From Liolophura sinensis (lineage: Eukaryota; Mollusca; Polyplacophora; Chitonida; Chitonidae): a DNA stretch of 64,000 bases. Position numbers and translations under genes: made by a program. The notes under the pieces are model-generated. The model saw only the letters and a list, made by a program, of their open reading frames with translations, was not told the origin of the DNA and did not search any database. How positions within the stretch are numbered: the stretch's first letter is position 1; each line of letters starts with the position of its first letter. The stretch is taken from contig NC_088301.1 in assembly GCF_032854445.1 (NCBI RefSeq), forward strand, positions 11,590,281-11,654,280, written 5' to 3'. This document shows positions 26,751 to 62,691 of the stretch, piece by piece.

Positions 26751-28247
26751 GTGTTGTGACCCTCAAACAAACTTATCCCAAGGTGGTGTTTTGATGTTCA
26801 CTGAGAGCCCTTTTTAGAGCATTAACATCCAGGATTCTTTCCATATCTCCCATTTACGCGCGTTTGAAGGCTTTTAGTATAAAGCGAGTCTTGCTCGTTT
26901 CTTCCTGTTGGCATAATACACATACTAGGAAACTACTTACGGTTCCTTTCCAAGTTTGAAATTTGAAGACTACACCCTGTTCTTTCCATCATCGACATCC
27001 TGTTTGCAGAGAATGCTTAGCCGCATGGCAGCATTTCCGATACAGAATTTAACTATTGCAGGAATCAACATCCCTAAAATGTACCATGATTTCATCCTTA
27101 AATATCTGGCTGCTTTTATGCAGTAATACTCCTGTGTCATTTGAATCGTATTTAAATCCGCTTTGATTGGCGGATTAACTCGTAAATAGACACAAATTAA
27201 TTTTTTGTTCTTTCAAGTAACTGGAAGTAAAAATACAACTCGTTTTTCTTTTATTTTTCCGATATTTGCTCTCATCAGTCAATCTATAGAGACACGAAGG
27301 CAAATGATAGCTCTGCATGACAAAGAAAACAAGTACAAAGATACATTTCAAACTTGCACAGTAATTATTTTATTGGATTATACCACGTGACTGACAAATA
27401 GATAATGATCTAATACAATGGCTTTAACAGTGAAGATAGAGCCAGACAAAATTTAACACTACATGAAATTCCTGTATTAAGTACTATATTTACAAAGAGC
27501 CGTCTCAAAGACTTTGTTCAGGCATGGTGCTGGAAATACAACGAACTAAGCAGCAGGTCGGGCAACTGGATACAGAGAGATTGGGGGAACATAGGTGCAG
27601 CCTGTAACCCATTCAAAGATGTTGCACCTTGCAGACGTGTCTTTCACAGGTTTCAGGCTGCAGCCATTTAAAGAGTATACGTGCTCACTGACACTATATA
27701 GGGCCTCACAGACACTATATAGGCCCAAGTAGGGGGAAGCAACCTACAAAATAAAGAAAACAGGTGCGATAGACTCTGTTCAGAGTTAAAAAAAGAGAGG
27801 ATTATATCGCCTGGGACGTGATAGTGATTAGATATGCGTGCTCCACTTATGCTCTGTATGACCGTGCTTGGGAGGTCCGTGATACGAGGGAGATAGAATT
27901 AAAGGCTGCTAGGGTTGAGAGATGTATGTTTGAAGGACCTGTATAATGCGTCGTGACGTACTAACATTGCAATCAAAGTAACGACATCTACACATAAGGA
28001 AACGTACGGTAGGGGAAACGTGGTTTCAGAGTGACGAGAAGAGTAAGAGTTTGAAGGAAAGATGTGAAAAGCAAAACAAAAGCGTAGTGATTCATTCGAA
28101 CATAATTTACTTTGTTATTTAGTGATCAGCAGTGTTCCTTTAAATTAACACTTTGATATTAACAGGACTTTTAAGAACAACAGAATCTGCCTTTTGGAGA
28201 CATCGCAATACAGGTAGTTGTCTCGAGCTTTAAACGGGTATCCCTGG

Positions 28248-28339
28248 TTACGGCGGTGACGTCACAGCACTGTTGACGTTGTTCCCCCAACACAAGAGGG
28301 GACCAATAGTGATGATTCCAGACTCGTTGCCAGGTTCAC
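28248..28339 (-). CDS. TSR-gene exon 27: C-terminal end and stop
   Basis: Acceptor cctctccacag; encodes [19 protein letters not shown] and ten more residues to [11 protein letters not shown] is the closing strand of CASPR-type fibrinogen-like domains, which confirms the terminal exon although it is short and 2.2 kb away. No hydrophobic segment follows. Confidence 0.88.
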
Positions 28340-30236
28340 CTGTGGAGAGGATAATATACCATTCCACGAATATCAGGTACCTGACTGCTGACAGACAAGA
28401 CCACCGCTGGTGACGAAGCTAGAAGGCCACATTACGGTGATAGCTAGGCTCTAAACTACTCACAGTAAATATAGTGCGCGTCACAAAACGCATGATCAGA
28501 GACAACTTCCTGAATTGGTGTTCAACTTTCCAACTGATATGTGCGTAGTTGGGTACAGGCAAGCAAATAAGCAGCGCCATCTTTAAGGTTCTTCTCCGGA
28601 GCATCTCAAATCGCCGATGGTGACAATGCCAAGTTCGATATTTTCCATCCCTGTACACAGTGTAAGAAAGCAGGTGAGAACACACACACTTATATATGTA
28701 TATATATATATTACAACTTACGTAAAACTTGCTTCACTACTACTAATGTGAACTGGTGCTGCACATACAACGGTCATTGACATAATCAACACAGATCACG
28801 GTGGTCACATGGCACGTTGTCTTACAATAGACCAATCATCAAACAGGATAGAAATAAAACACAAGTATAACAACTGATTGGTGATTGGTCTACTGTAAAT
28901 GGGAGATAATTTGTGATACGTCTTGATTATTCCGCTCTTCGGACGAGCTGGATCATTGGAGGATCAACTCCCGGAAACATTGCAATGGCCCAATCACAAC
29001 GGAGCCGGCTTCGTCAAGGTTACCTTAAAACATAGTAGTATTATAATAAACATTATGCACAAGTAACTATGTCCAAACAGTTTTTGTTTGCAGACTTTTT
29101 ACGATTTATTTCAGATTTTTGAAACTGTATTTTGCAGCATGAAAGGTGATTCTTGGAGGAAAATACCTGAATACAGATATATGTTAGAAAAACTGCCTAT
29201 TTCTTTTACAACCTCTGGAATTCTTATATGATCAGCCGTAAGATTGGGATGTGAAATGTATGAACATTTGAAATTGGATTCTAAACTGTTCCTGAAAGGA
29301 TAGGGGAGACTATTGAATTTTATGTCTCACAGATATATAACCTTGCACAATCGTAATTTTTATGAACTTCGCCTACAAATCTTTGCAGATGCACAGAGGC
29401 GAATGCTAAACGGCAAAAGTGTAAAGCAAACATGAACAATTCGACGAAGGCAATGCAAGGTTGCAACACTGATATTTAAAAAGAAACTAGCAACGATTAT
29501 GAAAATATCGCACTGACAGTTAGGGCATTTCCATTATGTCCATTGTTACAATGACGATCTGAAATATGTTGGTGATGATAAAGATACTATTAGGGTAGTG
29601 TTTTTCAAGATGTTCCTGGGGATGATGGTGAAGAGTGTTAGAGCAGTATTTCCAGGATGATCGTGATGTTGATGCCGATACTGTTAGGTCAGTGTTTCCA
29701 AGATGTTCCTGGTGATGATGGTGAAGAGTGTTAGAGCAGTATTTCCAGGATGACCGTGATGTTGATGCCGATACTGTTAGGTCAGTGTTTCCAAGATGTT
29801 CCTGGTGATGATGGTGAAGAGTGTTAGAGCAGTATTTCCAGGATGATCGTGATGTTGATGCCGATACTGTTGGGTAAGTGTTTCCAAGATGTTCGTGATG
29901 GCAATAAATATTTGGTACTTTATATGATAAAGATGAAGGTACTCTATGGATAGTGTATGTAATACCATAAATGACGCACAGCATGCAGAGTAAATGCAGG
30001 GCAGCGACGGCAGTGTGATAGTTGGTAAATGGTCAAACGTAACCGGTGAAATACGGCCTCTTGTCAGTTTACCTCAGTTAAGGCCTTATCCTAACTGTGC
30101 ATGTAAATGCATACAAGATGTTCGTCATGATGGAGATAATCTTAGGGCAATGTTTCTTAGATGTTCGTAATGTTGATGACGATCCTGTTTGGGTAGTGAT
30201 TCCAAGATGTTTATGATGATATTAATAATAATAATA

Positions 30237-30267
<31 letters not shown>

Positions 30268-33200
30268 AAATAATAAAAGCACAGTCGGGACGGTATTGCC
30301 AAGATATTCGTTATGTTTATGAAGGTATTGTTACCGCGGTATTTCCAACATGTTTGTAATGTTGATAAAGATAATGTTTGGACAGTAATGATAACGAAGA
30401 TACTGTAAAGGCTGTGTTTCCAAGATGTTCAATGACGGTAATGAAGACTTTTTAAAAAATTCTAGCACGCAGTAGATGGGGTGACAATAAAGGGAAAAGT
30501 GTGGACAACAAGAACTTACCAGTATCTCCAGCAGCGAAGGAGGTGACGGGCAGATCGTTCTTAACATTGATATATCCAGCATCCTCTCTCCACACTGCGT
30601 CGTTGGAGTCACAATTACATGTCGCTTTGGGGTCTGCACATGTTTTAGTCACACCGCAGTCACAGGAGCCGCTGTCCGGCGGTGCCCCGCCCCAGTAATC
30701 AGCCGCTCCGCCTGTGCGGTTCCGCCAGAAAGTAGTCAGGATGTAATCCTTGGTCTGGTCGTCTAGCTGCGAACCTCTGCGGTTGTGCATGAGGGCCGCT
30801 TTGCACTTCCAGCTGACGAACTGACGACAGGAGGCTGAGAGGTCGACTAATGCGAGTACCTGCTCCCAAGTGGCGTTGTACACCAGCTCTCCAGTGTCGT
30901 ACTCTCCGGCACCCTCGTACCCGTTCACCTCAATCTCTTCTTCTTGGTCATGCCCTAAGACAAGAGCACAAGATGGACTGGATTCTTGAGTTCACTGACA
31001 AGATTACTCTCTTATTACATACAAAGAAACGACCGAAACAGTTTGATGTACCGGTAACTCTTAGAATACTTCCGTTTGGGGTCAATCATTCATTTCGACT
31101 TCCTTGATGTCTTATGTCTACCCTGCAGGCATATGTATGGGTGTGGTTTCAAATTGAGACGGCTTCTGAGGGTGGATTTCAACAGACACTTGACATAAGC
31201 CAGGAGAACATCATGACTGGCTAAGTCCATATACATGCTGATAGTACTGAATAATTTATTATGGAAAGACATTAAAATTACAACTCAATTAATTGTTAAA
31301 GATTATGGGAACCCATTTGACTGAGCTTTTGTACCATCTAAGTTCTGTAAATCGGCTAGGGGTCATTTAACCGACTAGGACATTTCACAAAAGTAAAACT
31401 GTCTAAAACTTAGCCGGCTTACCAAAGCCCGCCATAACACCGCTCTGCAGCAATCTGATTGGTAGAGTCCATGATGATACCTGTTAAATTGGCTATATAA
31501 TATAGTATTTATTAGTATATAATAAATATACTACATTACTATGTATAAATAATACAAACGGACAATAAATCTCTTCTACATTTTTCGTTTTTAACGACAT
31601 CTGCAAGCAATAAATTTCACAACACAGGGTTGAAGTGAAAATTCAACAACGGATGTGTTTTGGCGCTTTGTCAAAAGGCCTTCATTTACTGATAGGACCA
31701 TATTTATTTCCTTTTTTTTTCTCCAATCAGTAAATTAAAGTGGGGCGTCTAACACTTCCTACGCCGAATTTATTTTCTCCTGGCCGCCCAAGGGTTTTGG
31801 GCTATCTGTCAAATCTAGGACAAAAGCTTTAGCTGATAGCCAAATATTTTCTTTGTGAAACGAGTTAACCGTCTGAGCTTAGACTTTTTGTGAAATGGGC
31901 CCCGGTAGTCTTGATTTAGCACTTGATAGCGAAGCTCACCTGTTGACTATGCACCTGTAATTGAACAAATGTGATCTTACCTATGATGGTGACGCCAACC
32001 CCACCCTGAGCCTCCATGTCACAGAACACTCGGACAGGGGTCTCCCCGGAAGGCCCATCTGGATCAATATCCGCCTCCGCACTCTCTGTCAAGCCTAGGG
32101 TTCGCAGGCCGGAACAACTGCGGGCTAAACGCATGCAATATGGATTGTCATTAACTCGAATGCTTAGTATTTATATATTTATTTATTTATTTGATTGATG
32201 TTTTACGTCGTATTCAAGAATATTTCACTTATATACAACGGTAGCCAGCATTATGATGGGAGGAAACCCACGACCATCCATGGGTTGCTGGCAGACCTTC
32301 AGACGTACGGCAAATGCTTAGTATAAATGGCAACTATTCAATTGTGTTGCTTCGTAGGTCTTAATTACGAGTGCCGTCCGAACTGAAAATAATTCCCCAC
32401 TGCCACCTTGCGTCTCCCTAACCTGTAGAGTATTCATTCCACAGCTAAGAAAAGTATACATGTGAAATCAACATTTGTGACGTCGCCGTTGCTAGTTTGC
32501 ATTCAAAATGTGCAATTTTCGGGTACTGGACAATACATATCCTAAATTCCAACGTAAACCACGTGAAAAGTGTGAAGTCAATCGGATGAATGGGTGTAGA
32601 GTAAGCCGAATGACACACATACATAGAGGTTACCTCCCTTATCGTCAGGTAACTTTATATAGCATATAATTATACACCTTCTACGTTGACATTAGTAACG
32701 TGACGTTATGGTGACGTCATCCAATGATACCGCGAATTTTAACTAAATTTAACTAAATTTTGCTCTGTGGTTAACGTCGTACTTTACAATTTTTTCAGTC
32801 ATATAACGACGAGAAATCATCACACTCAATCAGGTGTGTGTACATATAGCCTACCGTGTCTTTTTGTGGCAGAGCGAGTCCATGCCGCCAAAGTGCTGCG
32901 CCACTGAAGTATCATGCCGAACAATCCCACTTGTCCTGTTTTCTTGCTCTAACCACCGAGTGCTGAGCGACAAGCTAGGCAGCAGCAAGTACCATTTTCA
33001 AAGTCTTTAATATGACCCAATTCGGGTGTGATCACATGTCTTCCGACTTCATGTCGGACGCGCTAACCACTAGGTCACCGAAGCGGTCGGCAAAAGGATA
33101 ACTCGTCCACATCAGTCGGTATTCATCCAATTACTGATAATCGTTTCATAGCCTATAACTGTTTAATGGACTGGTCGAACTGTTGAGAAGGTCAAATTTC

Positions 33201-36200
33201 TGACAATTTCGTTTAGATAGTATGATAACCAGAATAGCTATTAATTTACTTCACGCCGGACAATCGATGATCCGTATTACACCACATCAAGCCCTAGTTA
33301 GCAGGTTTAAGCGTTTAGACACCTGAATTTAATGAGACACCTTTATCTAGTGCAACTGTCATTCGGGCTCTCGCGTGATTGATCATTGTACTGTGGTAAA
33401 GCATTACTACGTTACCAGTTTGCACGATAGGAATGAGTAAAAGATTATAGCTTCCGGCCCGTATTACTTTAAGCGACACAATTTCCTCTGTAGACAAAGG
33501 CCACAACCCAGCAAGAGAACGAAAATAAATGCAATATCAAGATTAAAATTTCAAACATCAACCATATAAAAACAAGAATCAAAATATATCATGAATACAT
33601 TTCACCTCAACGACATGATGATTTACCTTTCAGTAATGATTCAGAAGACTGGTGTAGACAGGCAACTATAGCGGCATAATAAGCGTACATGTATTTACTT
33701 CATAGGCGATAAAACATTACCATATGGCTGACAGGGGAAAATGTGACATTCCTCATCTTCTTCTGGATCACCGGCGCACGGTGCCGTCAGGTCTCCGTGT
33801 GACGTCATGTCACACTGGCGGGATCGCCTTCGGATACCTCCGCCGCACGTGACAGAGCATGACGACCAATCAGACCACGGTTCCCAGTCACCCGGTACTT
33901 GAAAGGTAAAAAAACGAATTTCAGAAACATAGTGGTGTCATATGAAAACAGAGCAAATAAATGATATTGAAACATGTCAAAGTTTTCGGAAAAATCTTCT
34001 TAAATATTCCAACATAATATTCACATATTCTTCAAAAATGAGATGGCTTAGAGGCCCCTGTCGAATATGCTGTTGAAGGATACAGGTTTCCTCTTTTATG
34101 CGTTTTCAGCAGATTGAATAAAGATTTGAAAAAGATGAATTTACAGCAAAGCAATAAATAGCATATGAATCAAAAATATATGTTACTTAAAATGACAAAT
34201 GTACAAAGATGAAGATGGTAGGGAGGTAGGGTGCAGAGAGCTAGGGATAGGAGTCATTGTGCCAATAGCAAGGGACAAGTAATGACAAGGGAACAGTGAA
34301 AATCATCTGACGAATTTACAAGCACGTTCAAGAAGATACATTTTTGATGACAACATTTCTAATACAAGCTAAAGTTAGCTTTAGGATGACTAGCTTCTCA
34401 AGCCAGGTGTTGGGTTTCCTTTTGACTTTTCTTAGATTACGATTTGAGATTACAATGAAAATGACACATTGGTGTAACCGATGGTCAAGTCAGCCTCCAT
34501 TCAAAATGTGTTGCTAGTGAGCTTTGCACTACCTAAAAAGAAACCAAGGCTTTGAAAGCCAATTTGTGAAGTCTTAATTGACGAAATTACATAGGGATAT
34601 CAGCTTCGCTAAACAATTACGGAATAAGTTCACGTAGGTGTCGAAATACGCCCACCATCAAAATTTAATATTCAGATGAAGCACTGTTGAGTTAAATTAC
34701 TTGAGAAAAACGATGCCAAAAACGTCATTGTAAGCAAGTTTTCCTGATTGATAAATGCGACTCAAGAGCTTAATTAGGGACCAAGGTAAATACGAGTTAA
34801 GCTTTATGTTAGCTTGTTACTTAACACTAATCAATTATAACGTAAATACACCAGTTTTAAGTATGAGGATATCGCTTTTTTGTTGGCGTTACTGACTAAG
34901 GCAGGGTGGTTGTTGACATTCCCTGTCCTCCTCGGCCAATCCTTGGCAGGGGTTACCCCCGTGGTATGGCCCGTCACACGTCCGCTCTCTTTGCTGTGTT
35001 CCCACCCCACAGGTTTCCGAGCATGGGCTCCACTTCCCCCACACGTTCCACCGCCCGTCCACTGAAACGATCAGCGAGCAGAACATGAATCACCAGGAAA
35101 AACCCTTAAGATCAATCATATGCAGGTTCGTACGATCCAAATTTGAAATTGTGACCCAGGTAGGTGATGTCCCCAAGCAAGTGGACTCTTATATGGAAAC
35201 AATATGGCCATGGAAATGTCCGATTGACTGTCTCAAAGGAGGCAGTCTCATATTTTATCGAGCTGTTAACCGCTACAATCGCCAGTGCTATGGAACCGAG
35301 ATGGCGGCTATCCAAGTACATGGAATGGGAATCTGGAACATTTTTCTAAAACTCATTTTCCAGGTTTCAGTAAACTTTTTTTCGATAAGTTTGACAATAA
35401 ATCATTTAATCTCAGACTGTGGCCTCTTGCAACTGTGTCAACTACCTGGACAGTTCTCCGTGCCACAGTCTTCAATCTGGAATCGGTCGCCATTACATGG
35501 TTCGCCGCCATACTGTGGCAGGATGCAGTCTCTCCTCCGCGTCCGAGTCCCTCCTCCGCATGTGACTGAACACTCGCCCCAGTCACCCCATGGAGTGAAC
35601 TCGCCATCAACTATAGCGACATAAACACACATTTACCAGCGAGTAGGCGAAAGGTACCTTCAACGGTTTGGTTACTTGATCTTGCAAGAATTTACGATAT
35701 ACTGGATGTCATGTATCCACCATGAATTAGAGACTAAAACGTTGTATTATAGATATATGAGAAACTCAAGGAAAAATTTCTTGTAGCGAAAATGCTCAAA
35801 TGAACCTTTATGGTTCATACCTTAACTGTCCCTTCTATATATAATCATACATACTAAAGGATTACGTACACACTTGATTCGCTAATTTCAAACAATTTCA
35901 AACAAAGTAAAATACAACAGCTAACCTTGCTGTAGGCAAAAAATAAAGAAGAAAAAAGGAGAACGATCTTAATTTTCCAGATGAAACAAGATGTGATTCT
36001 CTTAAGACAGCATTTGCTTTGTAAATATCTGCACTTACCGGGACACGGGTTGGTACTACACTCCTCAACTTCCCAATCACTTCCCTCGCAATCTTTTCCG
36101 CCATGAGCTGTCCCGGTGCAGACACGTTCACGTTTACGTGTACCTCCACCACACGTGAGCGAACACGTGTTCCAAACCGACCAATCTTCCCATACACCGT

Positions 36201-54200: not shown

Positions 54201-57200
54201 AAACCCATTCATGGATTGAACGCCGACTACACACATAAATCCATAGTTTTGAAAACGATTCACAACATCATGGTAACAATATACAAACATTCATCATGCA
54301 CTATTCGCAACAACATAGATTCTCACCAACATGCATTCTCAACAACACAAATTTTCAACAGTAATAAACATGGAGGAAAAACCAAAGATTACTAGCAGGG
54401 CAACTACACTTAGACTAAGCTACTAATATACTAATGTTCATACAGCTAAGCCAGGCAAGCAAATATTATAAATATTTCAAATACCTTTTGCCATCATTAT
54501 AACTTATTTCTCTTTAAACCTCTCTCGGAATATAAAAGATCGTTCCTAAATGTCTCTCTCTCTACACAAATCATTCCTGAGATGAGAGAAAAATAGGCGG
54601 AGAGAGCTCCATCACAAGGAATGCAGGAAATATGTTATATGTGACAAAGCAGAGCACCAATACTCCGCTATACAGCCAAACAGACATGTAATATGTAAAA
54701 AACAGCACTAAACTGGCACCACGACCTCAAGGAAAGACAGCCACGAGCATTGCATAACTTATATTATAGTTTATTGTTATTGTGGTTATATAAAGTCTAC
54801 AAACAGTGAAATAACGTTAATATTACAACTTGGTCCATATAGTAGTTCATAATTACTCTAAGAACAAACTTTGGTTTAGGTTGTCCAAACACAATATAAA
54901 TTTTCATAATCAATCATAAATCTCGTGACATCTTTGAAGATTTTGCGGAATGAGTGTTTCAGAAAAGATAACATTCTAACCCAAAAAGTTTGGCTCTTAT
55001 ACTCTACTCCAGAAACATTTGTGTTTACATACGAAATGTCATTTAGATACTTCATACATGTTTTGTCTTCTAGTATCATGGCGGTTAAACTTGAGGTCGT
55101 GAAAAGTGAGAAGCTGCTGCGCAAAGCGTGACTGACTACGCAGTTACCTGGACAGGGCGGCTGGGTACACGCCCGCTGTTCGATCCCGGGGCCTGCACAC
55201 GGCTCTCCTCCATGTAGAGTCGGGGGAAGGTCACACATGCGGGTCCGTGTTTCTATCCCGGTCTCACACGTGACGGAACAAGTGCCCCATGACGTCCACA
55301 TGTTCCAATCACCGTCCACTGAAAGACGGAACCGCGTCACAATTCATCAACATTCATAGGGGCTGAATTTTCCATACAAATAAACACCATGAAAACAGAC
55401 TAGGAAGTAATCTAAAGTATGGATAAACACTATTTAAATGAAAAGTTTATTTATTTATTTGACTGGTGTTTTACGGCGTACTCAGGAATACTTCACTTAT
55501 ATGACGGGGGCCAGTGTTATGGTTTGTGGAAACCGGTTAAAGGAAAAAAAGAAGTTTACAAATTCGCATATATAAATCACGCAAAGCACAAAAATTTAAT
55601 TGCCATTCTATCAATCCAACTTAGATCTGCCTTACTTGCTGTAGAAGAAAACATCATTGCGCCTTAGAAAAGCTAAATTTAACGTATTCCTAGAGTAAAT
55701 GTAGGCTACCGATGTCAAAGTGAAACCAAACATATCGATGGAGGAAAACGTCCAGCCGTACTTTTTATCTTTACCTTCGGGTTTCTTTCTAACAAGGTAG
55801 GCCAACGACAAAACTATGTGGGTTTTACGAAAAATATATGCAGAAACATTCAAAGCATAGGCCTACGTTTGATGGAGCGCTCAAAACGTTTCAATGCGAT
55901 CTTGCCATACGCCAGGTTAAAGCATAGCGCTGTGGTGGGGCTAGAGTATAATAAAGCTAACCCTAGAATTGCACTGTCAGTAAACACGTTCTAACTATTC
56001 ATTTGTAGAATACAGTTAGCAGTAGACAGCAACTGAAGGATGAGGACGTCGCGGGAGTTAATTCCTCGATTCCGCTAGTATACTCACCCTTACACTTCAC
56101 CCCGGCAGCAATGCCTCCTGCACACTCTGTGGTAGCGCTCCACACGCTGTGACGACAGCCCTGGATTTTACGTCCGGTAGTCGGACAAGAAACGTCTGAC
56201 AGAGTTATCGTTCCTGTACCCATTCCATACCGCCCATCTGTAACCACTGGGTGTACACAAGAGAGACATTTTTGTGGGTACTTCTTGTTATTTGGTGGCT
56301 GTTAAGGTATCAAAAGTCTAAGTTCTGAGTGAGTGAGTGACTGATTACAGGGCTGATTAAGTGGCTGATTGATTGATGTAGTGTGAGAATGAAGACAGCT
56401 ATGTGATTGACGAAATTTTAATGCTCTGAACTGAGATATTGGCCAGATGGCCAAGGAAAAGTTGTCGATTTCTGTAGTTAGTGTTTTCAGTATGTTAAAT
56501 ACGTGAGTTAGCAGTACGCATCTAGCTTTACCTTCACTGGCAGCGGAAAATCCCATCTGTCGGCACGCAGTATTGGCAGCATTCAAATCCCATTTGTCAG
56601 CACAGATAGAACCCCACCTCTCGGTGAGATCATTAAACAATTCAATTCGTCCTTCTCCAAACGTCGGTCCATCCTGTAGACGGACTGGGGCTGTGACCAC
56701 AACAATAAGACATTCATACGTTTGACGTAGTGATATTACAGATCCAATATCTTTTGTCTTACCTGTGTATGTCTAAAATTCCCTCTAAGGACTCCATCTC
56801 TATTGAATCAGGAGACCTGAAGACTTGAGAGGACAGGTTTTCTTTTAATTTAACAGATTGCTAAACCCAATAATCATGTATCCTCACCTTTTTTCCTTGA
56901 TTGTTTCCTGACGCTGTACTCATGAATATTTCATTTATATGACTACTGCCATTATCATTTTTCGTCTATAAGCTGAATGATCTCTCACCTGAATATGCTG
57001 AGGTGAATTACGAAAACTATTACGGATGAAAAATGAATGATGAAGTTCTCAAAGGTCACTGCTCTACATAATTGTGACGGTGTATCTCTGTATGCAACTA
57101 GCTTTCTGCTTTCACATCAAACTGGCACATCAGTGCGTTTACTGCTACAGACGTCACAGTAGAATGTATTCAACATTTTCTGCTTGACGACATAGTCACG

Positions 57201-60200
57201 ACAACTGGAAATACAGATTTAAACCCTGTATTGAGTTTAAGGGCGGTAAAACTTCTCATTTATAAATACCTGTACAAGTTTGTAACTAACTAAACACGCG
57301 CTGAAACATGGCATTTCTTGTCGAATGTGCAGGTAGAGTAAATTACATATAAGGGTAAGGGGTATACCACCCGAAACTACCACTGTTTCAAAAAAAAATG
57401 TATACAACGAATGTGACGCCAGTTTACCTTTACAATCAATGCCCTGACAATACCCGGTCTGGTTCAACGGCCCCATACAGAAGCGATCCACCCCGGGGGT
57501 TCCGCCGTTCGAGCAGGTCCGAGTCCGTGTTCTGAGCCCTTTGCCGCACGTGGTTTCCGTGGAACAGACGCCCCAGTTCCCCCAGTGGTTCCAGCCTGAT
57601 GGCAACATCATCATAGTAATACTATACTATTGACCTGTTCTTCGCACCCTTTAAATTTTAATTTCACTTCCAATGGAGCGATTTCATGATAAATGCAAAA
57701 CTATTTTTTTTTCCTGTGTACTTATACACTTCCTCTATATGATGACTTTTAAGTAAATAAATTGAGGAAACCAGAAATAGCAAAGAGGAAGCAACGTATA
57801 ATCAGACATCATCCGGTGGAAACGAAACACATTCCGGAGAAAATCAGATATATAGTTTCGGAGGAAACAAGACATATAGTTCGGGGGAGACATAACCATA
57901 AGGAAACCACTGCATCTTGATAGGTGCCTTACAAAATGACAACAACTTGAATGTTCTAATACATGCATTATGAATACGGTTTTGTTGACTGTCCAATGAC
58001 CATCAATTGACACGTGCGTGACGAAGCTCACAATTTTTCTTAGAAAGAAAACTCCAAAAATGAAACTCATATAAGAAAATACTTCTGTGTATTGGCGTCA
58101 ACTTGAACCATTATCACGAATGTTCTCACAGAAAGAAACATGGAGGGTTATACAGATATTTTGTGGTGTTTTGTGGTCTTTCGTCATATGCTTACATCAT
58201 GCTTAGGTCATGCTTACGTCATACTGTACGTATGTTTATCACTGTATGCGCACTATGCGGGAATCTTGTACAGTTGGAAGAATAGAACTCAGTGTGTTAA
58301 CTTGTACATCCGCCTACCTTGCCTAACTACTTAATTACTTCATATCTATCTTAAGGATATACCATAAAATGATCATGTATTTACTGTAGTCCAAATACCT
58401 GACGCCAAGGACAACATATATTTCGTATTGGGATTGCCATTGGCAATTACTAATAACAACCTCTAGTTCGGATTAGTATTTACTACTACTGGAAAATAAT
58501 TATGTCTTGTGAAGCTTTAAATTCAGAGATTTTTTCGTACTGGTAAATGCAAAACTAATCTGGTTTGTTTCTTAATACTGCATACCACCTAAGGATTTCA
58601 TTCAGATGATCCAAGAATTGCATCATTGATATAAGGCTCAATAATTACTGTCATAATTGCCACTGATAGTCTTTCGTCACATATTTCGTTTATGTCATTC
58701 AGAAGACCTCACAGCCGCGAAAAGTAAGTTACAGTCTTGACTTACGCGGACACTCCTGGTCATCACATTCCTCTACGTCTGTGTCCTTCCCGGGGCATCG
58801 CAAGGAGTCCGTGACCTTTTGAGTCTGTCCATCCATACACTTCCGGGTTCGCAGTCTCCAGCCTAAACCACAAGTCACGGAGCATGCGCCCCAGTTCGTC
58901 CACGCGCCCCAATAAGGCCACGGTACTATAAAAATATAGATCAAGAATAGATCAACAGTACGACAATAATAACAATATCATTCAGGTATAACCTACAATG
59001 TCATAAATTATTGGTTTAATCAGCTTTAGGGGTAGAGGAACCCGGAAAGCCTGGAGGAAATCTCCGTCTTTCACCAGGAGCTGATGGGCCGCTGCTAGAA
59101 CTACGCGTTAGCGAAATGAACCAGCAAATGTCCATCGGCCTATTTTAAAATATGAATGAAGCGAATAAAATCTAGGCATTAATCTAGAGATATTCCTGAG
59201 TGATAAAAGATTTATGTGGTGACAGGACGCACCTTGAGTTTGACAGTGGTCTCCCGCCCATCCCTGGACGCACACACAGTGGAAGATGTCGGCCCCCTGA
59301 GAGTCAGTCGTCTCTATACACTGTCCTCCATTCTCACAGGTCACGCCCGTACATAAGCCGAGAGCCAGCTGAAACAGGTGTCAGAGTATTTGGATAATAA
59401 TGCAGTTTTATACTTAGTTTAATAGCTTGGATAAATATACGCGTTGACGAAGATCAATGCACACAATGATTTAAGTATTGCGTATTGAAAGCTCCAGCAA
59501 TGGTTTTAGTGACTCCAAGCACTTCCGCTGTTATCATACCAATGCCATTGATATATAGACCGTTACCATACGAGTATAGACCATTGCCAATGGTAAATAG
59601 GACCTTAGCAATGGTATATAGACAATTATCGTTGGTATGCAGACCATTTCTAGCGGTATATAGACCATTACCTTTAGTACATAGACCATCACAATTGACA
59701 TGCAGACTATTACAATTTCTACACAGACCATTTTCATCGGTATACAGATGATTACCATCTGTATAGAAACCATTATCACTGGTACACAAACCATTATCAA
59801 TGATGTGTAGACCATTACCACTGGTAAATAGACCATTACCATTTGTTTACAGACCATTACCATCTTCATACAGACCATTATCATCAGTATATAGACCATT
59901 ACCATTGGTATATAGACCATTATCATTGGTATATAGACCATTAGTTTTGACATATAGACCCTTACCATCGGTATACAGACTATTACCATTGGTGTACAGG
60001 TCATTGCAATTGGTATATAGACCACTACCAACGGTATATAGACCATTACCATCAGTATATAGACCATTATCATTGGTATATAGACCATTAGTTTTGACAT
60101 ATAGACCATTACCATCTGTATACAGACTATTATCATTGGTATATAGACCATTAGTTTTGATATATAGACCATTACCATCGATATATAGACCGTTATCAAC

Positions 60201-62691
60201 GGTGTATAAATCATTGCCACTGGTATACAGACCATTACCATTGGTGTTCTGTTGACCATTGCCATTGGTATATAGACCATTACCACCGGTATAACATTAT
60301 CATTGGTATATATGATATTACCGATTATCAAAACCAATCAACAAACTCATGTACTGATTTCAAAGGCTGTATGCAACATTTGCAGGCCAGGGAACCTTAA
60401 CCCAGAGCTATAAGGGGATAATAGTGAAAGATGCTTGCGATAAAATGTCGTGGAGCTGCTTCAGTGGTCTAATGGTTAGAACATCCGTCTCTAAGTCGGG
60501 ATTCCTGATATCAAACTCGGGTAGAGTCATGCGAAAGACTTTAAAAAAAACTTGTTGCTGCCTCGCTTGGAGGTCTGCACTGTGGGGTTAGAGCAAGGAA
60601 ACATGACTGGATGGCCCGGTGTCGGGGTAATGTGACTGGTTGGGGTATCATGTCTATTGTTTTCGGCATGATATACTTCAGTGTCGGAAGCACTTTGACA
60701 GCATGGACTTTGCCACAAGGAGGCGCAATATTTGTACATAAACCTCCTCGTCGTTATATGACTGAAAAACTTGTTGAGCACGACGGTAAACTCCAAACAT
60801 ACATACACACATACATATATACATGAAAAAGTCATTGCAAATAATGGACGATAGACTGCCCACACACATGTGAAACAGTAACAGCAATACCAGTATTAAA
60901 ATTTAAATTCATTTCGATTCCTTTTTGGTTACAACTTTCGGCTAAAGTCCGTAAAAGCTTGGGGAAGTGTTTGAGCATGCGATTACATATATTTTGTACC
61001 GAGAGAAGACTTTGAGTTTAGTCCATCATGACTTGATGAAACAAGCTCCAGTTCTCGCCGCAGCCGGCCGGCCCCTGGCCAATAGCGTCATAGGTTCGAA
61101 TCCAGCTCTCGCTGGTTCAGCTTCAGGTTTCAGTCAGAAGTTTTGTCGCGTTCCTGATGAAAGGCGCTGTTTGTCTGCTTACGACGGACGCAAACCAGGT
61201 CGTCTTATATATGAATATTTTTGGTTATATTGAATTCAACACCAAAGGAGTGTACTGGTATACGTAAAGTAGAAAGCACTCTCTATGGAATCCAGTTAGG
61301 GCCATCGTCGTACTATCGTACAATCGTACCGTTCCATCATCCGACGATCGAACGAAGCGATTGAACGTTACTGCGAATCAATGGAACGATACTGTACAGC
61401 CATGAGAGATGATGCGAAACAAAGCATTCATGGCTGAACTACTGTTCTGACTGCTTATTTCAAAGTGTTTGTATATATACCAACATTTCATTGGCATACG
61501 ATCAAATCGAGAAATGCTCGATTTGTGTTACGATGACTTCCACTATAAACTAACACTGATATACATGTACCCCCTTCCAATTGGCCAAGTTCAGATAATC
61601 TTTCGATGGGGGCCTGTACTGACATTCAGTACTTCCACCAAAGCTGAATGTACAAATTTCCCCACTACAGAAAAAGGGACAATACTCTGTATTTGTAGCC
61701 TTTCTCGCACTAGTAAAAGAGTCGCTAATAAGATCCTCCATATGCATCCAGATTATTGTCTAAATTCAATACACTTGGGCTTGGCTCAAGCTCAAGTTGT
61801 ACACATGATTACACCCAAATCCGTAAAGTTGTTGATAGAGAGACAGACAAATAAACGCTGGCGAAGTTATCATCTTCTAGGCAGGGGTAATTCCACATGT
61901 GTTTGAATCGTTGCTTAGAGCGACTTGTGGATGCTTTGTATGATAAATAATCTAATGTGGAAGGTGGTCAAAATTAGCGTGTGAATAATGCGATCTAATA
62001 CGTTACTAATGGTGGATAGTTGCCCAGATTTTTAAAACATATATTTGTGAAACGTTTTCAGAAAATATTACAATCGGTTTAAGAAGACACTAGCTGATGA
62101 TACAGGCAGCACTATTTAAGTGGTAAAATGAAGATTATACGCATGCTAGCTGAGAAATTGTCTAAAATGAAAGATAATGGCAGGGTGATTTTATATGGAA
62201 TTCATTTAGAGCAGTAGTAACCTCCGACTCTTCTACTGAGTATATATCTAATTGTAAAAAATCGTTCTGTAATGCGCAAATCTGACTTACATTCTACGAT
62301 ATTAATCGGTTGGAAAAATACTGCGTGCAGTTAAAGGCTGACTTACTGGATCAATGGAGAATGCCTCCCGCTCATAGTACTCTGACGTGGTGTTCTTGCG
62401 CAGACTCGACGTCGGGACGTCAACGTGGCTCTTGTCGTTGAGGACACAGACTGCGGGATCGGACAGGAAGTTGTAGGACTTACACCGGTTGTCCTTTAGA
62501 CAATCCATGGCGCACTGCGTCACCACAAAACGGTTCTGTGTCACCTGGAGCGGAACTACGTGGAGGAACATGTCCTTTGACGGATAGTCTATCTTTGCTT
62601 TGGTCCAATCGTACACTAGCCCTGAGGCGATGTTAAGCCAGCACAGACATATAGCAAGGCGGAAAAGACCATTTCCTGGGGGACATTCCAT
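28248..62691 (-). CDS. Secreted modular protein: PAN, EGF, TSR x2, SRCR, TSR x18, CASPR-type fibrinogen-like
   Basis: Twenty-seven coding exons, listed separately, join in frame to about 1595 aa with TAA at 28248. Domains by approximate residue: signal peptide 1-23; PAN/apple to 115; EGF 116-160; TSRs 161-277; SRCR 277-380; TSRs 380-1373; fibrinogen-like 1373-1595. No transmembrane segment follows, so a secreted matrix or recognition protein is inferred. All junctions from the EGF exon onward are phase 1. TSRs carry WxxWxxC (tryptophan C-mannosylation) and mostly CxxS/TCG (O-fucosylation) motifs; many carry an NCS/NCT sequon. SCO-spondin, hemicentin and coadhesin are likely BLAST labels because of the TSRs, but none has this domain order to my knowledge. 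Splitting into two genes is possible but unlikely, since no start, stop or terminal exon is seen between the ends. No close poly(A) signal; the nearest clear AATAAA is at 27369-27374. Confidence 0.85.
30011..30080. repeat. Dispersed 70-bp repeat, copy 1
   Basis: Shares GGCCTCTTGTCAGTTTACCT plus flanking AAATGGTCAAACGTAACCGG with 51021-51090, and its left part with 45211-45255. Confidence 0.75.
30207..30275. repeat. (AAT)n-rich microsatellite
   Basis: About 20 imperfect AAT units in the last intron of the TSR gene. Confidence 0.9.
30520..30954 (-). CDS. TSR-gene exon 26: core of the fibrinogen-like region
   Basis: A 435-base exon. The motifs are those of neurexin-IV/CASPR rather than ficolin: [52 protein letters not shown] and NDLPVT. 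The ficolin-type calcium and acetyl-group binding residues are not apparent. Two NxT sites: YNATW and RNRTG. Acceptor gtcttag, donor ATACTG/gtaagt. Confidence 0.93.
31981..32124 (-). CDS. TSR-gene exon 25: start of CASPR-type fibrinogen-like region
   Basis: [20 protein letters not shown] then [20 protein letters not shown] matches the opening of fibrinogen-related domains (Cys, then IDPDG, then VxCDM). Acceptor gcgtttag, donor ATAG/gtaaga, phase 1-1. Confidence 0.9.
32170..32312 (-). mobile_element. SINE family A, 3' half
   Basis: Tail ATTTATTTATTTGATTGATG to the pyrimidine-rich core near CAGACCTTCAGACGTACGG. In the intron before exon 25. Confidence 0.85.
32870..33095 (-). mobile_element. 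SINE family B
   Basis: Reverse strand reads CCTAGTGGTTAGCGCGTCCG head, TACTTGCTGCTGCCTAGCTT, GTTAGAGCAAGAAAACAGGA, GCATGATACTTCAGTGGCGC, GCGGCATGGACTCGCTCTGC. Intron between TSR 20 and exon 25. Confidence 0.8.
33721..33897 (-). CDS. TSR-gene exon 24: TSR 20
   Basis: [20 protein letters not shown], then a longer acidic loop ([12 protein letters not shown]) and FPCQPY. At 177 bases it is the longest TSR exon of the C-terminal run. Acceptor cctttcaag, donor ATATG/gtaatg. Confidence 0.92.
34897..35061 (-). CDS. TSR-gene exon 23: TSR 19
   Basis: [36 protein letters not shown]. The usual CPG end is replaced by CL, and the donor is TGCCTTA/gtcagt, still phase 1. The exon then joins as Ile to TSR 20. 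Confidence 0.9.
35446..35610 (-). CDS. TSR-gene exon 22: TSR 18
   Basis: [35 protein letters not shown]; ends TENCPG. The 179-codon open frame on the opposite strand is a shadow. Acceptor gctatag, donor CCAG/gtagtt. Confidence 0.93.
36039..36203 (-). CDS. TSR-gene exon 21: TSR 17
   Basis: [33 protein letters not shown]. Nearly identical to TSR 15, including about 25 bases of the preceding intron. Acceptor gatgttttag, donor CCCG/gtaagt. Confidence 0.95.
36245..38740. repeat. 87/88-bp minisatellite, about 28 units, TSR-gene intron
   Basis: Units of the type cttcccaaggttcccatgta, then tcactcccttgatggagg, then gtgactgacaaactggcc; spacing alternates between 87 and 88 bases through a gccgtca/gccattca variant. 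It lies between TSR 16 and TSR 17. Units of 87 bases keep a frame open, which explains runs such as [19 protein letters not shown]. Confidence 0.97.
39034..39198 (-). CDS. TSR-gene exon 20: TSR 16
   Basis: [35 protein letters not shown]. Diverged partner of TSR 14. The intron after it carries the 2.5-kb 87/88-bp minisatellite. Acceptor ctggtcag, donor CCTG/gtacgg. Confidence 0.95.
40729..40893 (-). CDS. TSR-gene exon 19: TSR 15
   Basis: [33 protein letters not shown]. Differs from TSR 17 at two residues only (Ile/Val after VDG, Glu/Asp after GGK). Donor CCTG/gtcagt is weaker than that of TSR 17. Confidence 0.95.
41113..41410 (-). mobile_element. Two SINE family A segments, one with variant head
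   Basis: 41113-41285 runs from tail to GAGGAAGCTAGCACGAGCTC and then continues into TACTTTAATAACAATACC; 41318-41402 is a second core fragment. The variant head also occurs at 45776-45806. Confidence 0.8.
41772..41936 (-). CDS. TSR-gene exon 18: TSR 14
   Basis: [35 protein letters not shown]. Paralogous to TSR 16 (VDGMFQDW), forming with TSR 15 a pair that was duplicated as a unit. Acceptor cccttcag, donor CCGG/gtaagt. Confidence 0.95.
42180..42468 (-). mobile_element. SINE family A with internal interruption
   Basis: The tail part at 42180-42215 and the core/head part at 42285-42465 are separated by about 70 unrelated bases. The head includes GAACTCGTGGAGACCACATT. Confidence 0.8.
42480..44035. 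other. Intronic stretch with no feature seen
   Basis: Part of the 3.4-kb intron between TSR 13 and TSR 14. I searched it for a further TSR exon and found none. Confidence 0.5.
44040..44872. repeat. Imperfect 830-bp inverted repeat (fold-back element)
   Basis: Arm 44040-44290 pairs with arm 44600-44872. Matching phrases include tctatttcttttag, attcagctgtct, tagccag-gacacgtaaca, and a perfect 23-bp GGTGACGTCATAATTATTCA plus AAA at 44248-44270 and 44631-44653. The arms are about 75-80% alike by eye. It lies in the large intron after TSR 13; no transposase is visible. Confidence 0.75.
45211..45255. repeat. Dispersed 70-bp repeat, partial copy 3
   Basis: GTGCCGACAGTGTGACAAAT then GGTCACACCTAATCTGTGAA, matching the left half of copy 1. 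Only 50 bases before the TSR 13 donor on the transcript's far side. Confidence 0.55.
45306..45470 (-). CDS. TSR-gene exon 17: TSR 13
   Basis: [20 protein letters not shown], then [12 protein letters not shown] in place of the NCS sequon. A 3.4-kb intron follows, containing the fold-back element at 44.0-44.9 kb. Acceptor tgcttgtag, donor CCAG/gtaaga. Confidence 0.95.
45622..45806 (-). mobile_element. SINE family A with variant head
   Basis: ACTCAAGAATATTTCAATTA to AAGCCAGCATGAGCTCC, then TACTTTAATAACAATACCAA instead of the tRNA-like head. Intron between TSR 12 and TSR 13. Confidence 0.82.
46268..46432 (-). CDS. TSR-gene exon 16: TSR 12
   Basis: [34 protein letters not shown]; ends THHCPG. 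Last of the WSDWS block. Acceptor gttttgtag, donor CCTG/gtaaga. Confidence 0.95.
46785..46975. repeat. Degenerate 28-bp repeat
   Basis: Recurring acaaacacctgttga, agaaacatgtgttaaacg, cgaacacttgttacac and aaaacgtgttgaacat at about 28-base spacing, in the intron between TSR 11 and TSR 12. Confidence 0.6.
47478..47642 (-). CDS. TSR-gene exon 15: TSR 11
   Basis: [36 protein letters not shown]. Only 173 bases of intron separate it from TSR 10, the shortest intron in the gene, consistent with local exon duplication. Confidence 0.95.
47816..47980 (-). CDS. TSR-gene exon 14: TSR 10
   Basis: [20 protein letters not shown]: intact tryptophan ladder and O-fucose site; NCS sequon present. Acceptor tcaccttag, donor CCAG/gtgaca. 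Confidence 0.95.
48321..48485 (-). pseudogene. Decayed TSR exon with in-frame stop
   Basis: Same 165-base length and frame as its neighbours and clearly homologous (VDGFWLSW start, [16 protein letters not shown] core). It has TAG at 48454-48456 in place of the Trp codon of WSDWS, a Trp-flanking change to WCD, and CTTSSG where CTVSCG is expected, so a core cysteine is lost. The acceptor ggtttaag has a weak pyrimidine tract, while the donor CCAG/gtgatt remains good. Skipping it leaves the phase 1 frame intact. Inclusion would truncate the protein near residue 773. I left it out of the gene model. Confidence 0.88.
48717..48964 (+). mobile_element. SINE family A, full length
   Basis: The tRNA-like head (CAGCTGGTTAGCGCGCTGGC, then GAGTTCAAGTCC as B box) is followed by the core TCCTCTCCGGCCGTACGTGG and the tail GGCGTAAAACACCAATCAAA ending in (AAAT)n. 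Best plus-strand reference copy in the window; intronic to the TSR gene, antisense to it. Confidence 0.9.
49441..49500 (-). mobile_element. SINE family A, short 3' fragment
   Basis: ATATATTTATTTATTTGATT, GGAGTTTTACGCTGTATTCA; the copy ends just before the region downstream of TSR 9. Confidence 0.8.
49599..49763 (-). CDS. TSR-gene exon 13: TSR 9, O-fucose site lost
   Basis: [20 protein letters not shown]: Ala at the O-fucose position, the third loss in a row. Sequon in KHGGANCSG. Acceptor tttcatag, donor CCAG/gtgatt. Confidence 0.95.
50028..50150. repeat. Short degenerate repeat
   Basis: The phrase aagatgrgtcaaatgtagtntgct occurs twice at about 57-base spacing, with a weaker copy before it. 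Confidence 0.45.
50698..50862 (-). CDS. TSR-gene exon 12: TSR 8, O-fucose site lost
   Basis: [20 protein letters not shown]: a second Pro substitution at the O-fucose position. Sequon in RHGGANCSG. Acceptor tctttgtag, donor CCAG/gtaagg. Confidence 0.95.
51021..51090. repeat. Dispersed 70-bp repeat, copy 2
   Basis: AAACTGGTCACCCGTAACGG then GGCCTCTTGTCAGTTTACCT, about 80% like copy 1. Confidence 0.75.
51438..51602 (-). CDS. TSR-gene exon 11: TSR 7, O-fucose site lost
   Basis: [20 protein letters not shown]: Pro replaces the Ser/Thr of the O-fucosylation motif. KYGGANCSG carries the NCS sequon. Acceptor attgcag, donor CCAG/gtaagc. Confidence 0.95.
51705..51960 (+). mobile_element. SINE family A, full length but mutated
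   Basis: Head TAGTTGGTTAGCATGTCATC, core CCTCTCCGGCCCTACGTGGG, tail GGCGTAAAATACCAATCAAA. In the intron between TSR 6 and TSR 7. Confidence 0.88.
52126..52290 (-). CDS. TSR-gene exon 10: TSR 6
   Basis: [20 protein letters not shown] with an NCT sequon in KHGGINCTG. First member of the closely related WLEWSDWS block (TSR 6-12). Confidence 0.95.
52611..52775 (-). CDS. TSR-gene exon 9: TSR 5
   Basis: [20 protein letters not shown]; the central loop is [14 protein letters not shown]. First of the 165-base exons. Acceptor cccaacag, donor CCAG/gtgagt. Confidence 0.93.
53663..53818 (-). CDS. TSR-gene exon 8: TSR 4, shortened
   Basis: [20 protein letters not shown], then a shortened central loop ([17 protein letters not shown]) without the HGG motif of the others. 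Acceptor ttcttcttag, donor CCTG/gtacag. It is three residues shorter than the standard exon. Confidence 0.92.
53830..55140. other. Intronic stretch with no feature seen
   Basis: Intron between TSR 3 and TSR 4. A DGV-starting open segment near 53.9 kb lacks all TSR cysteines and is not supported as an exon. Confidence 0.5.
55148..55318 (-). CDS. TSR-gene exon 7: TSR 3
   Basis: [20 protein letters not shown] opens the repeat; the core includes [12 protein letters not shown] and ends QPPCPG. Acceptor tctttcag, donor CCAG/gtaact. Confidence 0.95.
55447..55540 (-). mobile_element. SINE family A, 3' fragment
   Basis: TTTATTTGACTGGTGTTTTA to GGCCAGTGTTATGG; the rest is missing. Confidence 0.82.
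56088..56237 (-). CDS. TSR-gene exon 6: SRCR domain, second half
   Basis: Completes the SRCR with [19 protein letters not shown] and AAGVKCK. The domain has six cysteines and is split over two exons, which is the group A arrangement. Acceptor tggttacag, donor AAGG/gtgagt. Confidence 0.93.
56532..56690 (-). CDS. TSR-gene exon 5: SRCR domain, first half
   Basis: [29 protein letters not shown] and [10 protein letters not shown] are the classic N-terminal half of a scavenger receptor cysteine-rich domain. Acceptor tggtcacag, donor GAAG/gtaaag, phase 1-1. Confidence 0.95.
56899..56955 (-). mobile_element. SINE family A, old fragment
   Basis: GTACTCATGAATATTTCATT, TATATGACTACTGCC; intron before SRCR exon 5. 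Confidence 0.5.
57428..57595 (-). CDS. TSR-gene exon 4: TSR 2
   Basis: [19 protein letters not shown] has two extra residues between the first two cysteines, which removes the usual O-fucose spacing. It ends YCQGIDCKG. Acceptor gccatcag has a weak pyrimidine tract. Donor AAAG/gtaaac. Confidence 0.88.
58746..58925 (-). CDS. TSR-gene exon 3: TSR 1
   Basis: Acceptor tttttatag, donor CCGC/gtaagt. [19 protein letters not shown] has both the tryptophan ladder and the O-fucose site. The middle loop is longer than in later TSRs and has an extra Cys ([10 protein letters not shown]), so it is of a different subtype from the 55-residue repeats. Confidence 0.93.
59233..59368 (-). CDS. TSR-gene exon 2: EGF-like domain
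   Basis: Acceptor cctgtttcag, phase 0. Six-Cys [16 protein letters not shown], then [13 protein letters not shown]. Donor CTCAAG/gtgcgt switches to phase 1, the phase used by all later exons. No calcium-binding signature is evident. Confidence 0.9.
59550..60310. repeat. About 21-bp minisatellite (tagaccattaccattggtat), about 35 units
   Basis: Lies in the intron between the EGF exon and exon 1 of the TSR gene. Because 21 is a multiple of three, both strands stay open for long stretches (267 codons minus, 151 codons plus). The predicted YRPLPLV and MVYIPMV heptads are repeat artefacts with no start context or splice links. Confidence 0.95.
60448..60830 (+). mobile_element. SINE family B, near full length
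   Basis: tRNA-like head CTTCAGTGGTCTAATGGTTA with B box ATCAAACTCGGG, body CTTGTTGCTGCCTCGCTTGG, GGTTAGAGCAAGGAAACATG, GCATGATATACTTCAGTGTC, tail with CATACATA repeats. Related bodies at 18650-18800 and 32870-33095. Confidence 0.8.
61055..61250 (+). mobile_element. SINE-like element with tRNA 3' half
   Basis: A perfect B box GGTTCGAATCC precedes AGCTCTCGCTGGTTCAGCTT, GTCTGCTTACGACGGACGCA and a tail ATTGAATTCAACACCAA. The A-box half is not convincing, so it is called a SINE relic, not a tRNA gene. Confidence 0.55.
61255..62340. other. Intronic stretch, one unexplained open frame
   Basis: Part of the first intron of the TSR gene. A plus-strand open frame of 145 codons (61469-61906) has no recognisable domain or splice partners and is probably chance. 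Confidence 0.5.
62347..62691 (-). CDS. TSR-gene exon 1: signal peptide and PAN/apple domain
   Basis: The ATG opens a hydrophobic leader ([16 protein letters not shown]). The mature part has the PAN/apple cysteine pattern [18 protein letters not shown] followed by CVLND. Donor GATCCA/gtaagt, phase 0. PAN domains bind proteins or carbohydrates. Any 5' UTR exon upstream was not found. Confidence 0.88.

Follow-up and report, generated by a model that had tools for sequence, protein, structure and literature searches.

Tandem-duplicated, mutually exclusive terminal exons are known from Drosophila pip and from the 3′ variable regions of PGRP-LC, and tropomyosin figures among the mutually exclusive duplicates, in the cases set out in one source (PMC9013439). 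We describe here a chiton locus whose three candidate ends would be a new instance of this already known kind. The window, i.e. the whole stretch of DNA that was analysed, comprises 64,000 nucleotides of Liolophura sinensis (C7:11590281-11654280), and positions given without a contig refer to it. On its minus strand, a predicted gene runs from 62691 to 28248, with 27 coding exons per isoform: 26 are constant and are followed by one of three last exons, a, b or c. The predicted protein consists, in this order, of a signal peptide with a PAN module, an EGF module, two TSRs, one SRCR domain, 18 more TSRs and a CASPR-type fibrinogen-like (FBG) domain (Table 1). An earlier note on this DNA had given the gene a single end and had thereby overlooked the three tandem candidates; the position that it reported, 28248, is the last of these three candidate ends.

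The model was built by listing stop-to-stop frames, scoring splice sites and joining exons. The joined exons form a single open frame of 1591, 1590 and 1598 amino acids for isoforms a, b and c, the sole stop being the terminal one. The earlier statement that the exons join without a frame break thus held over all 1598 codons of the longest form. All introns have GT-AG sites, and 25 of the 26 junctions of each isoform are in phase 1, the remaining one in phase 0; part of this uniformity follows from the frame having guided the choice of exon edges. The length of the TSR exons, exactly 165 nt for 15 of 20 and also for a broken TSR exon, supports the model independently of this frame-guided choice. 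Compared with 1937 background AGs, acceptor strength was mixed. Those of TSR14 and TSR8 are excellent, while those of TSR1, TSR2, TSR5, SRCRb, TSR20 and last exon a are weak, each being equalled by 15-23% of the background AGs (21% for TSR1, 23% for TSR5, 19% for last exon a).

Table 1. Coordinates of the features of the chiton gene, listed in the direction of transcription
Feature	Position	Strand	Evidence
Signal peptide + PAN exon, ATG at 62691, leaves in phase 0	62347..62691	-	PAN_1 E 6.5e-9, splice sites
EGF-like exon, six Cys	59233..59368	-	PF00008 at 21.7 bits (cut-off 21.5) on exon frame; score drops in context
TSR1 exon	58746..58925	-	TSP_1 profile, splice model
TSR2 exon	57428..57595	-	TSP_1 profile, splice model
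SRCR domain, first exon	56532..56690	-	SRCR E 4.1e-10 alone; 1.4e-18 joined
SRCR domain, second exon	56088..56246	-	SRCR E 5e-5 (below cut-off alone); 1.4e-18 joined
TSR3 exon	55148..55318	-	TSP_1 profile, splice model
TSR4 exon	53663..53818	-	TSP_1 profile, splice model
TSR5 exon	52611..52775	-	TSP_1 profile, splice model
TSR6 exon	52126..52290	-	TSP_1 profile, splice model
TSR7 exon	51438..51602	-	TSP_1 profile, splice model
TSR8 exon	50698..50862	-	TSP_1 profile, splice model
TSR9 exon	49599..49763	-	TSP_1 profile, splice model
Broken TSR exon of 165 nt with both splice sites kept, a single in-frame TAG and a lost Cys; outside model	48321..48485	-	
TSR10 exon	47816..47980	-	TSP_1 profile, splice model
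TSR11 exon	47478..47642	-	TSP_1 profile, splice model
TSR12 exon	46268..46432	-	TSP_1 profile, splice model
TSR13 exon	45306..45470	-	TSP_1 profile, splice model
TSR14 exon	41772..41936	-	TSP_1 profile, splice model
TSR15 exon, 95% nt identical to TSR17	40729..40893	-	TSP_1 profile, splice model
TSR16 exon	39034..39198	-	TSP_1 profile, splice model
TSR17 exon	36039..36203	-	TSP_1 profile, splice model
TSR18 exon	35446..35610	-	TSP_1 profile, splice model
TSR19 exon, weak donor GTCAGT	34897..35061	-	TSP_1 profile, splice model
TSR20 exon	33721..33897	-	TSP_1 profile, Pfam on exon frame, splice model
FBG domain, first exon (..IDPDG..VFCDM..)	31981..32124	-	COLFI/Fibrinogen_C similarity below cut-off
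FBG domain, central exon	30520..30954	-	Similarity to FBG exons of same genome
Candidate last exon a, own stop, weakest of three acceptors	28953..29023	-	Phase, motif, splice score
Candidate last exon b, own stop	28583..28650	-	Phase, motif, splice score
Candidate last exon c, own stop	28248..28339	-	Phase, motif, splice score
Candidate poly(A) signal AATAAA beyond the three ends, possibly shared by them	27369..27374	-	Second at 27250-27255

Pfam searches placed PAN_1, SRCR and TSP_1 above cut-off, all on the minus strand inside 28248-62691, and the module anatomy is real and well supported. Among the five module classes named in the earlier note, PAN, SRCR, TSR and FBG were recovered, whereas EGF is marginal by Pfam. 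In the head, PAN_1 reached 36 bits on the exon frame (cut-off 21.4), and the first 491 amino acids gave PAN_1 at 3.1e-8, SRCR at 1.4e-18 and four TSP_1 stretches. The EGF module passed its cut-off on the exon frame but fell to 15.5 bits in the 491-residue context; its six cysteines have EGF spacing, as judged by eye. Neither SRCR nor EGF was listed at E≤0.01 in the scan of the full-length protein (1598 aa), a result that speaks against the model and is probably a pre-filter effect of HMMER in a long, cysteine-rich protein. SRCR domains of group A have six cysteines and are encoded by two exons; the six cysteines predicted here, spread over two exons, place this domain in that group. A search of the genome with the PAN-EGF piece gave a best other match of E 6.3e-4, meaning that it has no close relative there. 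The open frame at 61553-61759 was considered as an extra cysteine-rich exon between PAN and EGF and was rejected, having no Pfam match at E≤1. The PAN-EGF intron also contains a 21/42-bp tandem repeat (59538-60312) with long minus-strand stretches that are open in two frames.

The profile search with TSP_1 found 20 stretches over the full 1598 amino acids (E 8.4e-227). Genome-wide, the window holds 20 of the 100 TSP_1 exon matches listed, when the best 150 of 201 candidates were scored. Motifs of the WxxW and O-fucose types carry C-mannose and O-fucose; isoform c contains 38 WxxW, 18 WxxWxxW and 17 O-fucose-type motifs, with 149 Cys, 19 N-glycosylation sequons and no RGD. The 20 stretches and their Trp ladder assign these predicted domains to the TSR superfamily. 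Over the 7 compared pairs of intact TSR exons, dN/dS was 0.036-0.19, which argues for purifying selection. TSR15 and TSR17 have a dN/dS of 0.08, and TSR7, 9, 10, 11 and 12 form a younger group, with best partners at 76-84% nucleotide identity. A minisatellite of 88 bp (36266-38709, ∼28 copies, 94% matches) fills most of the TSR16-TSR17 intron and stops ∼60 bp before TSR17.

The earlier count of about 20 TSRs was correct for intact exons, 20 in number, and left out one further, broken exon. The latter is nearest to the TSR7/9/10/11/12 group (73%), and a genome search with it returned only itself and TSR11. In four comparisons its pN was 0.136-0.170 for a pS of 0.71-0.81, and this low ratio suggests that the exon was under constraint through most of its history and was disrupted only recently. 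It may be skipped, act as a poison exon or represent a haplotype variant.

In isoform c, strong hydrophobicity is confined to residues 8-26, a signal-peptide-like segment; on the Kyte-Doolittle scale no transmembrane segment was found in this isoform, the best 19-mer outside the signal peptide scoring 0.95. This agrees with the secreted protein proposed earlier. Rfam gave no match at gathering thresholds. Other features of the window lie outside the gene. Two plus-strand frames at 21447-22300 match Lipase (PF00151) above cut-off and are part of a neighbouring lipase-like gene, a minus-strand frame at 7885-8214 has weak alpha/beta-hydrolase matches below cut-off, and a 65-bp tandem repeat occupies 6962-7588 (9.6 copies, 94% matches).

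No Pfam family was above cut-off for the FBG domain (COLFI, 20.9 bits versus 26.2; Fibrinogen_C, 16.8 versus 22), and a PDB search with it yielded no match at E≤1. An ordinary fibrinogen-related lectin (FREP, ficolin) was rejected on this Fibrinogen_C score. Within the genome, the domain matched FBG exons that have laminin G downstream, the best at 8.9e-14. When the genome was searched with the central FBG exon, 23 places were listed, itself among them, and the best other match, at C7:45.61 Mb, has laminin G downstream, in line with the earlier assignment to the CASPR type. At five FBG loci (C7:45.51, C7:45.61, C1:77.46, C1:75.82 and C7:7.75 Mb), a Laminin_G_2 match was present 1-4.5 kb downstream on the same strand; positions were compared by hand, and the order at all five is that of CASPR. 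Two of these laminin G matches are interrupted by a stop, which can happen when a six-frame match runs on into an intron, and the FBG match at C7:7.75 Mb is weak (E 0.0098). Four single frames taken from the C7:45.5/45.6 Mb loci contained no Pfam domain at E≤0.01, so CASPR identity there rests on the downstream laminin G.

At the chiton gene itself the companions of CASPR were not found. Among 53 Laminin_G_2 matches listed at E≤0.01, none falls in C7:11.59-11.65 Mb, and laminin G was absent from the scans of the 223-residue FBG domain (E≤1) and of the full-length protein. Discoidin (F5/8C) was likewise absent, at E≤1 in the first 491 amino acids and at E≤0.01 over the full length, in the scan that also missed SRCR. 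The reading as an ordinary CASPR gene was dropped on these grounds, no transmembrane segment having been found either. The earlier note had further contrasted the gene with CASPR as a membrane protein in which this region keeps company with laminin G. While the CASPR type of the domain stands, that restriction is weaker than claimed. At C1:80.08-80.11 Mb, FBG matches share their strand with exons for EGF_CA, VWD, TIL, Kazal and TSP_1 (EGF_CA and the others at 80.10-80.11 Mb, FBG upstream), and laminin G is unlisted there. This means that the FBG module is not confined to the company of laminin G in this animal, and the association of TSR with FBG may not be unique to the chiton gene. Unlike the latter, the C1 locus has no PAN or SRCR among the matches listed, and is known as separate exon matches, not as one gene model.

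The end of the gene is where the model departs most from the earlier note. Exons a, b and c, of ∼22-30 codons each, all have a phase-1 acceptor, restore the frame, encode a closing "IGxLxC" strand ([IV].IG.L.C) and then stop. Having its own stop, each excludes the other two from the coding sequence. The predicted exons are homologous, in tandem and of the same phase with a stop each, which is the arrangement of mutually exclusive last exons. The same closing strand occurs in CASPR-context FBGs, as IGPLTC and VGPVVC; at the two loci read, it shares one open frame with GDTG, with no intron between. By this comparison, the intron before the closing strand looks like a feature of the chiton gene. 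The terminal motif, which was written after the exons were seen, has five matches in the window on both strands, for an expectation of 0.475 per strand (40 first-order Markov shuffles): three lie within 690 bp at the last exons and two are unrelated. Further terminal exons were sought with the same scan, and it gave nothing besides these five. A genome search for a second copy of the terminal region found only itself.

Should only one of these exons be used, the two others could be decayed duplicates. We consider this unlikely, although the same gene does carry a decayed TSR exon, the acceptor of exon a is weak, and the exons are short, so that a test of selection rests on few sites. The 11-codon cores of the three pairs share 0.45-0.48 of their nucleotides and 0.55, 0.55 and 0.64 of their amino acids, with a pS of 0.90-1.01 over ∼9 silent sites each; that is, silent sites are saturated. 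Frame, acceptor phase, stop and IGxLxC were nonetheless kept in all three exons, and in neutral simulations (20000 runs per pair) the motif was kept 1, 4 and 2 times, hence at most 4 in 20000 for any of the three pairs. Saturated silent sites, a kept protein core and the rarity of neutral motif retention together argue for protein-level selection on all three ends. The donor of the central FBG exon, moreover, outscores every background GT. From their sequence, the three exons are likely to be selectable alternative ends, and all three would be spliced in vivo.

As for the way in which an end would be chosen, none of 12 poly(A) hexamer variants occurs between exons b and c, and acceptor choice with a shared 3′ UTR would accordingly be a simpler mechanism than three poly(A) sites. 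Downstream of c come two variants (28123 and 28111) and then the first canonical AATAAA, at 27374. Separate poly(A) sites for the ends are possible, given an AATAAA at 29110, 87 nt upstream of exon a, and an AATATA at 28712, between a and b. A scan for RNA pairing at the ends returned four inverted repeats. The longest is a local hairpin between a and b (arms 28822-28846 and 28874-28898, 25 nt, 88% complementary, 27-nt loop), which may derive from a mobile element or serve as a splicing signal. The intron before the last exons also contains a 93-bp tandem repeat, at 29583-29894 (3.3 copies).

The main reservation about the domain order is that of a prediction error, such novelties in predicted genes being often mispredictions according to one source (PMC3927609). 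In the present case, the model would have fused on paper a PAN-EGF-TSR-SRCR(-TSR) gene with a neighbouring TSR/FBG gene, or more than two adjacent genes. A boundary inside is possible, for example in the PAN-EGF gap (3.0 kb) or the TSR20-FBG gap (1.6 kb). Read on past an unused donor, the TSR20 frame does close within 8 codons, and the 25 introns between constant exons contain 49 AATAAA/ATTAAA hexamers (0 to 8 each). An in-frame ATG is found in the open stretch just upstream of 6 of the 26 constant exons, the first FBG exon among them. After such ATGs the best hydropathy over 11 residues was, however, 0.10-1.69, the first exon reaching 2.24. None of the ATGs attached to internal exons thus precedes a stretch that equals the first exon in hydrophobicity; a signal peptide carried on a 5′ exon of its own would go unnoticed in this test. 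The frame can stay open at every junction with GT-AG sites, 13 of the 25 introns are under 900 nt, and the first FBG exon alone is only the first part of a domain. We therefore regard a fusion of neighbours as quite improbable, and all exons would likely belong to one transcript of one gene.

To see how unusual this gene is in its own genome (632 contigs, 609,464,459 bases), the places listed for TSP_1, SRCR, PAN and FBG were compared by hand, the profile searches covering the best 150 of 201 (TSP_1), 150 of 501 (SRCR) and 150 of 176 (PAN) candidates. Among the matches listed, no second place has PAN, SRCR, TSR and FBG together. Pairs of modules were met elsewhere, again among the matches listed: PAN adjoins TSRs at C7:32.12 and C6:42.72 Mb, with PAN on the 3′ side, and SRCR at C1:33.33 and C11:7.22 Mb, and FBG and TSP_1 occur on one strand, 15-80 kb apart, in C1:77.5-80.1 Mb. 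The earlier note had suggested that the domain order may be undescribed; a literature search found no description of the chiton architecture, which does not show that it is unpublished. Two side observations came from the same searches. At C13:28.99-29.12 Mb, the matches listed include a dense run of SRCR exons on both strands, possibly an SRCR gene cluster, and contig C99 has mitochondrial COX1 seven times at ∼15.5-kb spacing, which probably reflects copies of the mitochondrial genome concatenated during assembly. The mitochondrial gene order, ND3-ND2-COX1-COX2-ATP6 as judged by eye from open frames, is that expected of a mollusc.

We propose that this one chiton gene would produce a secreted, disulfide-rich extracellular scaffold. 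PAN, EGF, two TSRs and SRCR would form a ligand-binding head, the 18 consecutive TSRs a rod, and the CASPR-type FBG domain a cap, of which the three tandem last exons would be alternative completions. Starting from the central FBG exon, the spliceosome would use one acceptor out of three, and the one used would decide which C-terminal strand and tail precede the stop. In its simplest form, this would be alternative 3′ splice site choice with a shared 3′ UTR. Taken as a whole, this account (one gene, a secreted scaffold, three alternative cap completions) is in our view probably right. RNA-seq from five tissues of this species, namely digestive gland, foot, gill, gonad and heart, is described in one source (PMC11068029), which makes the main claim directly checkable.

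What the scaffold would do is a reasoned guess: a secreted matrix or recognition role. The roles put forward in the earlier note (matrix, mucus, shell or immune) are plausible. A structural protein of cuticle, girdle, shell or mucus, with the caps as tissue-specific anchors, is possible, at somewhat less than even chances. The cysteines, WxxWxxW motifs and O-fucose-type motifs counted above for isoform c would fit a stiff, glycosylated rod, and, in one source, mucin-4-like proteins with TSP1 and a neurexin (contactin-associated) protein belong to the coral skeletal matrix (PMC8382919); thrombospondin, EGF, scavenger and fibrinogen are, on the other hand, unnamed in the main text of two chiton papers (PMC6351634, PMC7850002). 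Slightly less likely is an immune recognition protein, in which SRCR and PAN would bind ligands, the TSRs would form a properdin-like rod, and the caps would tune specificity, with the logic of the 3′ variable regions of the Drosophila immune receptor PGRP-LC. Modules of these kinds also build non-immune matrix proteins, which counts against such a reading. In its favour, the closest solved chains for the first 601 amino acids are PIT54 and CD163/M130 for the SRCR domain and properdin and thrombospondin-1 for the TSRs. In addition, SRCR genes are described as responding to microbes in several invertebrates (PMC11797021), and the choice among the PGRP-LC regions is given as mutually exclusive (PMC9013439). 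More speculative still, and in our opinion rather unlikely, would be a lineage-specific secreted scaffold for recognition, whose CASPR-derived fibrinogen-like cap has its closing strand and tail exchanged by splicing; a single TSR rod would then offer three specificities, for binding or for anchoring, under regulation by tissue or challenge.

Comparison with known systems sets the secreted scaffold that we favour apart from each of them. Like properdin and thrombospondin-1, it has tandem TSRs (properdin, E 6.8e-41, best stretch 173 query residues), but it has 20 of them, in addition to PAN, EGF, SRCR and FBG. With the SRCR scavenger proteins CD163/M130 and PIT54 it shares an SRCR domain of the same family, present here as one copy embedded between TSRs and not as an SRCR array. 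As in pip and PGRP-LC, its last exons are homologous and in tandem, one being used per transcript in the known cases (PMC9013439); the chiton exons, known here from genomic sequence, differ in that their few codons complete a fibrinogen-like domain. With CASPR/neurexin IV (CNTNAP) it has in common the FBG landmarks YWGG, CxC, CNC, LP..GDTG and IGPLxC, and its identity with the CASPR-context loci is 42% over 92 aa (C7:45.61 Mb) and 30.5% over 200 aa (C7:45.51 Mb, pieces joined by eye). Unlike in CASPR, no laminin G, discoidin or transmembrane segment was found in the chiton gene, and its cap is C-terminal, with three candidate last exons. It would be a compact case of module shuffling, a CASPR-type fibrinogen-like module standing at the end of a secreted TSR rod, where the last strand, set off by an intron just before it, may thereby have become free to duplicate and so to provide three selectable ends.
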